This document shows positions 34,011 through 36,049 of a DNA stretch of 64,000 bases, one piece after another (position 1 is the stretch's first letter; each line of letters opens with the position of its first letter). A model generated the notes under the pieces. The model searched no databases, had not been told where the DNA came from, and saw only the letters and a program-made list of their open reading frames with translations. The DNA comes from Streptomonospora mangrovi (GTDB lineage: Bacteria; Actinomycetota; Actinomycetes; Streptosporangiales; Streptosporangiaceae): positions 1 to 64,000 of the forward strand of contig NZ_JAJAQC010000036.1 in NCBI RefSeq assembly GCF_027604915.1. The letters run 5' to 3'. The translations under genes were made by a program, and so were the position numbers.

Positions 34011-34430
34011 GTGCACTACCACGTCTACCGCTGGCGCGGCACCGCCACCGAGTACCAGCGCCGCCACACCTACGAGTCCCACATCGACCAGGCCGCGTTC
34101 GCGAGGTCGCCCGTGCCGCCGCTCAAGGCGTGCTGGTGGCTGCGCAAGCCCGCCGAGGCGGCGGCGGGCACCTACAACACCGCGCACGACGCGGCGCGGT
34201 GGCTGGCGGCCGAGTACCGCGCGGTCGCCGACACGATCGCCGTCCCCGGCCTCTGGACGGCCGACCGCCAAGAGCACGCCGCCCGCGACCTGGCCGACGG
34301 CCGCGACATCACCTGGTCCTGGTCGCTGGAGGGCGACCGACGAGCCTTCGCCTCCGCCGTGGCCTGCTCCCCCAACCGCTGGGACCCCGACGCCGCCTGC
34401 CCCCTGCGCGACCGCCCCCGCCACACCTAA
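34011..34430 (+). CDS. uncharacterised protein
   Basis: 139 residues from a GTG start (34011). Rich in Trp, Arg and Ala; begins MHYHVYRWRGTATEYQRRHTYESHIDQ. No domain recognised and no membrane segment. Codon use is normal throughout (third positions almost all G/C while the residues stay varied), so I believe it is translated. It stands alone and is followed by a decayed methyltransferase fragment on the other strand. Confidence 0.55.
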   Translation: MHYHVYRWRGTATEYQRRHTYESHIDQAAFARSPVPPLKACWWLRKPAEAAAGTYNTAHDAARWLAAEYRAVADTIAVPGLWTADRQEHAARDLADGRDITWSWSLEGDRRAFASAVACSPNRWDPDAACPLRDRPRHT

Positions 34431-34592: not shown

Positions 34593-34817
34593 TTCCTCCT
34601 GAACAGCGATCCCCCGAGGTCACCAGCGGAAGGCGACCGTCCCGCAGCGCACTGCCATTGCCTGTCCACAACGGAGAGTGGCAGACGAGCACGGGAGCGG
34701 GGGCGCGTTCGGCCGGGGTCGGGTGACCGGATCCGGACACATTCGGTCACCGGAAATAACAGCAGGTAACCATGGGGCTACGGTGGTGCCGCGAGCCGCC
34801 GACCCCGAGGAGAACCG

Positions 34818-34922
34818 ATGGGCCGCCACGAAGGACCGCCGCAGCCGCGCCCCCAGCCGATGCCCCCACCGCCGCCGCCCAGCCCCGACGGCGGCCCGCG
34901 CCCCGGACGGCACGAGAAGTGA
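34818..34922 (+). CDS. 34-residue proline-rich leader ORF coupled to the methyltransferase
   Basis: ATG 34818 is preceded by GAGGAGAACCG, the best ribosome site in this region, and encodes a Pro/Gly/Arg-rich peptide (13 prolines; starts MGRHEGPPQ and ends PGRHEK). Its TGA overlaps the GTG start of the methyltransferase (GTGA), so ribosomes finishing it would start the enzyme. It could be a coupling leader only, or a substrate peptide. No Cys, Thr or aromatic residue is present, which argues against most known modified-peptide classes. Confidence 0.5.
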   Translation: MGRHEGPPQPRPQPMPPPPPPSPDGGPRPGRHEK

Positions 34923-36049
34923 CCGAGGAGCTGGAACAGTTCCTCTTGGCCACCGAGACCCTGGATCCCGCGTGGCGCGGCGCCTTCCGCGCCGTGCCAC
35001 GCGCGGACTACCTGCCCGACGTCATCTGGCCCTTCACCCCCGAGGACGACCGGCGCCGGGTGGACCGCGCCGCCGACCCCGACGCCTGGGCGCGGTGGGC
35101 CGAGGCCGATGTGCCCATCACCGTGCAGTGGGACGACGGCGCCACCGCCGAGGCCGGTGAGGTGTACACCTCCAGCGCGTCCATGCCCAGCCTCGTCGCC
35201 GCGATGCTGCGCGACCTGGACTCCCGGCCCGGCATGCGCGTGCTGGAGATCGGCACCGGCACCGGCTGGAACGCCGCGCTGCTGTGCGAGCGCCTGGGCG
35301 CGGAGGCGGTGACCACCGTCGAGGTCGACGCGTCGCTGGCCGAGCGCGCCCGCGCGCGGTTGCGCGCCGCCGGGTACCGGCCCGTGGTGGTCGCCGGGGA
35401 CGGCCTGGCCGGGTGTCCCGACCGCGCGCCCTACGACCGCGTCATCGCCACGGTGGGGGTGCGCGCGGTGCCCGTGGCGTGGATCGACCAGACCCGGCCG
35501 GGCGGGGTGATCCTGGCGCCCTGGGGCACCCACTTCAGCACGCACGACGCCCTCGCGCGGCTGGTGGTGGCCGCCGACGGCAGCGCGTCGGGGCAGTTCA
35601 CCGGACCCGCGCAGTTCATGAAGGCGCGCTCCCAGCGCCGGGCGTGGCCCGACCACGAGGAGTACGTCCGCACCGGCGACTCCACGGCCATGCGCACCGA
35701 CCTGGACGTGGCCGACCTCTTCGATCCCGGCTACGGCGGGACCGGCATGCTGCTGGGCCTGCTCGTGCCCGACGCCGTCCACAACGCCCGCGACGGCAAG
35801 GTGTGGCTGTACGGGCTCACCGACCACTCCTGGGCCGCGGCCGTCACCGAGGACGGCACCACCTCGGCGTACCAGGGCGGCCCGCGCCGACTGTGGGAGG
35901 AGGTGGAGGCGGCGTACCGGTGGTGGCTGGCCCAGGGAAGCCCGGGAGTGGACCGGTTCGGCCTGACCGTGCACCCCGACGGCACCCACGAGGTGTGGCT
36001 GGACACCCCCGACCACCCGGTGTCCCAGCCGGTCGGGGCATCCCGGTAG
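34919..36049 (+). CDS. PIMT-like SAM-dependent methyltransferase
   Basis: 376 residues from GTG 34919. The core matches protein-L-isoaspartate methyltransferase: SSASMPSLVAAML, then SAM motif I MRVLEIGTGTGWNAALL (near residue 100), then VEVDASLAERARARL and PYDRVIATVGVRAVP. It has an N-terminal substrate-like region (RAVPRADYLPDVIWP) and a C-terminal domain of about 120 residues (YGLTDHSWAAAV...EVWLDTPDHP) absent from the repair enzyme. This longer form occurs in actinomycetes, in some cases with ribosomal peptide (graspetide, FxLD) systems. No ligase or lanthionine synthetase lies nearby. The start is chosen from coupling to the upstream mini-ORF. Confidence 0.85.
   Translation: MTEELEQFLLATETLDPAWRGAFRAVPRADYLPDVIWPFTPEDDRRRVDRAADPDAWARWAEADVPITVQWDDGATAEAGEVYTSSASMPSLVAAMLRDLDSRPGMRVLEIGTGTGWNAALLCERLGAEAVTTVEVDASLAERARARLRAAGYRPVVVAGDGLAGCPDRAPYDRVIATVGVRAVPVAWIDQTRPGGVILAPWGTHFSTHDALARLVVAADGSASGQFTGPAQFMKARSQRRAWPDHEEYVRTGDSTAMRTDLDVADLFDPGYGGTGMLLGLLVPDAVHNARDGKVWLYGLTDHSWAAAVTEDGTTSAYQGGPRRLWEEVEAAYRWWLAQGSPGVDRFGLTVHPDGTHEVWLDTPDHPVSQPVGASR

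Follow-up and report, generated by a model that had tools for sequence, protein, structure and literature searches.

A proline-rich peptide gene overlapping a PIMT-like methyltransferase gene in Streptomonospora mangrovi, a probable minimal cluster of the imiditide/type I pamtide class

The gene pair at 34818-36049 of the window (the whole 64,000-nucleotide stretch of Streptomonospora mangrovi DNA analyzed) very probably represents a minimal RiPP cluster of the imiditide/type I pamtide class. Imiditides were reportedly named by Cao et al. in 2023. Type I pamtides were named by Lee et al. in 2024 (PMC10787088), the two-gene clusters of a precursor and a methyltransferase that carry these names were defined in 2023-2024 (PMC10787088, PMC13001092), and a 2026 review puts the number of listed type I cases at 1,414 (PMC13001092). 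In such systems the enzyme methylates one aspartate of a linear peptide, giving an aspartimide and then isoaspartate. Every testable defining feature of the class is present in the pair, which is best read as real and, rather than a new kind of system, as a proline-rich subgroup of a known class. The initial annotation had suggested a "stripped-down or new" peptide-methylation pair. The ligase-free pair stands, as no graspetide ligase is close by and the mini-ORF is conserved in its sequence, length and junction; the novelty does not, given that the class had already been defined.

The precursor gene and its junction with the methyltransferase gene

The features of the locus, all on the forward strand, are as follows.

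34779..34784 (+): possible -10 element TACGGT, tentatively assigned from the recurrence of TAC[CG]GT across loci
34807..34812 (+): Shine-Dalgarno sequence GAGGAG, 5 nt 5' of the precursor ATG, retained in locus L009 despite the change of ATG to TTG there
34818..34922 (+): precursor peptide gene, 34 aa, MGRHEGPPQPRPQPMPPPPPPSPDGGPRPGRHEK, with an ATG start, identified from the sequence and from conservation in orthologous loci
34887-34889 (+): codon of Asp24 (D24) in PDGG of the precursor peptide, the modification site predicted from the alignment
34919..34922 (+): GTGA, in which the precursor stop overlaps the GTG start of the methyltransferase in a translational coupling arrangement, seen in the sequence
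34919..36049 (+): PIMT-like peptide aspartyl O-methyltransferase (PAMT), 376 aa, with a C-terminal domain, assigned from profiles, model and alignment

The arrangement as originally described, a mini-ORF with a GAGGAG site that ends in GTGA over the start of a PIMT-like methyltransferase, was confirmed from the sequence and from profile matches. The methyltransferase GTG has only a weak ribosome site, located inside the overlap, whereas that of the mini-ORF is good. Within the subgroup of closely related loci the junction is GTGA in most members and ATGA in L017 and L012.

When counted by eye, the hexamer TAC[CG]GT occurs approximately 30-45 nt 5' of the precursor start in 8 of the 12 loci compared and may be a promoter element common to orthologous and paralogous loci; from the TACGGT at 34779-34784, tentatively, transcription would start just upstream of the mini-ORF. 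A standard sigma-70 promoter scan and a terminator scan at the locus returned no hits. A longer methyltransferase of 425 aa, from an in-frame start at 34772 which is not conserved, was also considered. It was discarded because L009, the nearest relative, has this frame closed just 5' of the GTG and because the possible -10 element sits downstream of that start.

Conservation of the precursor peptide

The mini-ORF peptide is under purifying selection. A 34-codon ORF in GC-rich DNA means nothing alone, and this one rises above chance because it is conserved. The mini-ORFs upstream of orthologous methyltransferases were compared, as had been proposed with the initial annotation, and were found to be conserved in both sequence and length. 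Orthologous enzymes at 89, 65, 62, 62, and 60% identity are each preceded by a mini-ORF of 34 aa, and that at 55% by one of 33 aa, with the pattern Mx[KR]HEGPxQP...PD[GS]GPxPGRHEK. The charged termini by which type I precursors are defined are conserved as an N-terminal [KR]HE and a C-terminal GRHEK, with variants found in L009 (TTG start, HE to RE), L017 (C-terminal H to R), and L019 (ending in GRHGK). Eight pairs were then assessed against the number of amino-acid changes expected if the observed substitutions were scattered at random. The substitutions proved strongly synonymous: seven of these pairs showed 5-9 changes where 11-17 were expected (p < 0.001), and the closest pair showed 4 where 7 were expected (p = 0.04). 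The peptide's own frame gave 74-86% identity to MGRHEGPPQPRPQPMPPPPPPSPDGGPRPGRHEK, and the other two gave 32-82%, lower in every pair.

These data bear on the suggestion that the mini-ORF is merely a translational-coupling leader which sets the expression of the methyltransferase, with the enzyme acting on another protein. The good ribosome site at the mini-ORF and the weak one at the enzyme GTG would suit such a leader, but third positions diverge while the amino-acid sequence is retained along with the length, both ends and the Asp. A leader would need neither conservation at the amino-acid level nor a fixed Asp, and we consider this explanation very unlikely.

The precursors of the subgroup are unusual in containing 34-47% proline and a single Asp. 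This residue (D24), in PDGG or PDSG, is retained in 9 of the 10 subgroup loci, and one Asp column, followed by G, S, K, E or T, is common to nearly all of the aligned precursors. The exception in the subgroup is L011 (the same sequence as L040) of Nocardiopsis suaedae, whose variant MAKHEGPPKDMPKPPPPPPPPPGRHEK is missing the PDGG site and retains both ends as well as the methyltransferase. The Asp is thus not universal in the precursor, and this variant reflects either decay of the pair or a shift of its site. In L020 (the same as L041) of Nocardiopsis chromatogenes, it is the N-terminal motif of the mini-ORF that is lost. More distant enzymes are preceded by mini-ORFs of 31-54 aa, mostly starting with MG[DEK]H and many with a G[KRQ]HEK-like end; for four distant paralogs (L004, L013, L026, and L028) no clear mini-ORF was present in the stretch read.

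A DNA pattern for GRHEK followed by a stop was tried as a class-wide marker and rejected. It matched in 9 of 395 genomes, in four of which (this genome, G005, G013, and G345) it was located at a methyltransferase of the same family, the rest being unrelated ORFs or loci. It is not diagnostic alone, because a reversed-pattern control matched at a similar rate. The pattern PDGGP has dozens of chance occurrences in the S. mangrovi genome itself.

The methyltransferase

The 376-aa enzyme matches the PCMT family (PF01135) with 102 bits. Its best-scoring curated model is TIGR04188, for the methyltransferase of graspetide systems, at 327.8 bits, which fails the cut-off of 380, and its scores with the equivalog models for repair PIMTs are well under their cut-offs (TIGR00080, 82.6 of 159; NF001453, 103.5 of 188). 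A structure predicted from 26 sequences was confident (pLDDT 91.9) and contains the additional C-terminal domain, longer than 100 residues, by which type I enzymes are defined, with the predicted strands and helices at 256-338 in the order published for this domain. The nearest solved structure is that of the Thermotoga maritima PIMT (1DL5), which has the closest fold, C-terminal domain included, over 371 columns at 22% identity. We know of no partner mini-ORF for the T. maritima enzyme. Near the C-terminus lies the motif WxxxGxP, here WLAQGSP at residues 336-342, of which W336 and P342 are invariant across 26 aligned sequences and which has been reported for lasso, graspetide and imiditide methyltransferases (PMC13001092). 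Both the C-terminal domain and the WxxxGxP motif are those of RiPP-associated aspartyl methyltransferases. No counterpart of NmaM's acidic DEDGD loop was identified in the 376 residues, whose C-terminal part contains the acidic stretches DHEEY at 245 and EEVEA at 327.

It could be argued from the shared catalytic PCMT domain that the enzyme is a protein-repair PIMT which happens to have an unrelated proline-rich ORF in front of it. This is highly improbable, considering that all of the repair models score far under cut-off, that the enzyme carries a RiPP-associated type of C-terminal extension, that the genome encodes ten further full-length paralogs and that the mini-ORF peptide is conserved.

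Comparison with known systems

Like the imiditide/type I pamtide pairs NmaA-NmaM of Nonomuraea maritima and SpaA-SpaM of Streptomyces sparsogenes, the pair consists of two genes and encodes a short, linear Pro/Gly-rich precursor. NmaM and SpaM are likewise PIMT homologs with a C-terminal domain and WxxxGxP, and there is no cyclase in either system. The precursors NmaA and SpaA, compared here by their descriptions, share the one conserved Asp and the charged termini, but the S. mangrovi peptide is shorter (34 against about 45 aa), with far more proline and only one Asp. In composition MGRHEGPPQPRPQPMPPPPPPSPDGGPRPGRHEK has 41% Pro, 3% Asp (the single Asp), one Ser, one Lys and no Thr, and it departs from the published type I mean of 16.8% Pro and 10.2% Asp.

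Cysimiditides, or type II pamtides, as represented by FcaA-FcaM, use the same enzyme family in the same two-gene layout. The peptide differs from FcaA in that none of its 34 residues is Cys and that the CxxCxGxG zinc-ribbon motifs, two of which are needed for type II, are absent. Without Cys and Thr it would make no lanthipeptide and a poor graspetide. The group 13 graspetides with a methyltransferase (fuscimiditide, amycolimiditide, and SsfA) also have a homologous enzyme that acts on Asp, within Asp-Gly in the case of SsfA. They differ from the S. mangrovi pair, which has no adjoining ATP-grasp ligase, whose peptide is without side chains for cross-links, and whose enzyme falls outside the graspetide group of the genome's own paralogs.

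Proposed modification of the peptide

By analogy with these systems, the mini-ORF would be the substrate gene and the overlapping gene would encode its dedicated aspartyl O-methyltransferase, the two products being made together through translational coupling. The conserved charged ends ([KR]HE and GRHEK) may be what the enzyme binds in the linear peptide, to judge by the residues recognized in the homologs studied. The strong conservation of GRHEK agrees with the C-terminal residues of SpaA and NmaA being required for modification. Recognition by charge is plausible, but the NmaM-type DEDGD loop was not identified in this enzyme. As with SpaM and NmaM, the enzyme would then methylate its substrate, here at Asp24 in PDGG; the methyl ester would close spontaneously to an aspartimide, as in the studied homologs, and the latter would hydrolyze in part to isoAsp to give a mixture of Asp and isoAsp. 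Asp-Gly forms aspartimide readily, which makes PDGG a chemically favorable site.

It is also conceivable, if unlikely, that the near-identical GRHE motifs at either end, separated by a polyproline rod, meet on the enzyme or on a metal, with Asp24 presented in a hairpin. If true, the pair would belong to a subclass of its own, with a recognition logic unlike that of a plain, charge-recognized linear imiditide. A metal clasp formed by the two terminal His residues is not favored, because Arg takes the place of one of them in L009 and of the other in L017.

To the natural substrates of the imiditides the pair contributes a polyproline peptide that is very small and has a single Asp. Having one Asp, one enzyme and a naturally occurring ortholog without the site, it offers a clean case for how a stand-alone aspartyl methyltransferase chooses its residue in a linear peptide; otherwise, it is what would be expected in a class with more than 1,400 listed clusters.

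Genomic context, ligases and paralogs

The flanking genes encode Tex, a DUF2157 membrane protein, PdxA-like, DXP synthase and baeRF proteins, and AAA proteins, and no RiPP enzyme of another class was found among those profiled. The locus is, as type I clusters are defined, a two-gene cluster of a precursor and a PIMT homolog with no other primary RiPP enzyme nearby. The whole neighborhood is syntenic in the sister genome (L062), and in seven other relatives, which have unrelated flanks, the methyltransferase and the mini-ORF form the only block next to the locus that is shared. An ORF of 139 aa (34011-34430, +), which lies between Tex and the pair, has no Pfam or NCBIfam match. The spacing in this region is approximately 700 bases shorter in the sister genome, which suggests that this ORF was inserted in S. 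mangrovi or lost from the sister genome.

The earlier observation that no ligase is present was borne out, with matches to TIGR04187 only on contigs C72, C10, and C20, and weakly on C9. The genome has three ATP-grasp ligases, all on other contigs. Their existence, together with TIGR04188 being the best-scoring model for the enzyme, could suggest a graspetide cluster in which a ligase acts in trans and the methyltransferase is a tailoring enzyme. Each ligase, however, is already beside its own paralogous methyltransferase, and these three methyltransferases cluster apart in the tree with good support (100/98); the TIGR04188 score lies below the curated cut-off, and a peptide with no Thr, one Ser and one Lys has few partners for ester or amide cross-links. 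A ligase in trans is consequently extremely unlikely. In the same tree, the enzyme at 34919-36049 groups with stand-alone enzymes having type I-like mini-ORFs.

In all, the genome has eleven full-length members of this enzyme family, that at 34919-36049 included. One of the paralogs, on contig C6 (L007), is directly preceded by the CxxC-containing peptide MAQCAMCEGTGVVFTTTDGDGKNPWKSTRPVQCPNCKGTGRV (L007:1328-1456, +), which by its motif appears to be a cysimiditide/type II pamtide precursor, making this a pair of the FcaA-FcaM kind. On contig C69 (L005), a frame ending in ...DRSPPPPPDYGGGGGRHERDDEDR overlaps the start of a methyltransferase and lacks a good start codon. It could begin in a different frame, and a broken or misassembled precursor is thus possible. 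Type I-like precursors beginning MGHRKEG..., MGDHGNPDKP..., and MGDHGNQDKP..., with a DG[QS]xP site, are found before three other paralogs (L003, L006, and L008), so that one genome holds several different aspartyl-methyltransferase peptide systems. A tandem arrangement was also observed at L038 (overlapping L022), where two methyltransferase genes each have their own MGDHEGK... precursor.
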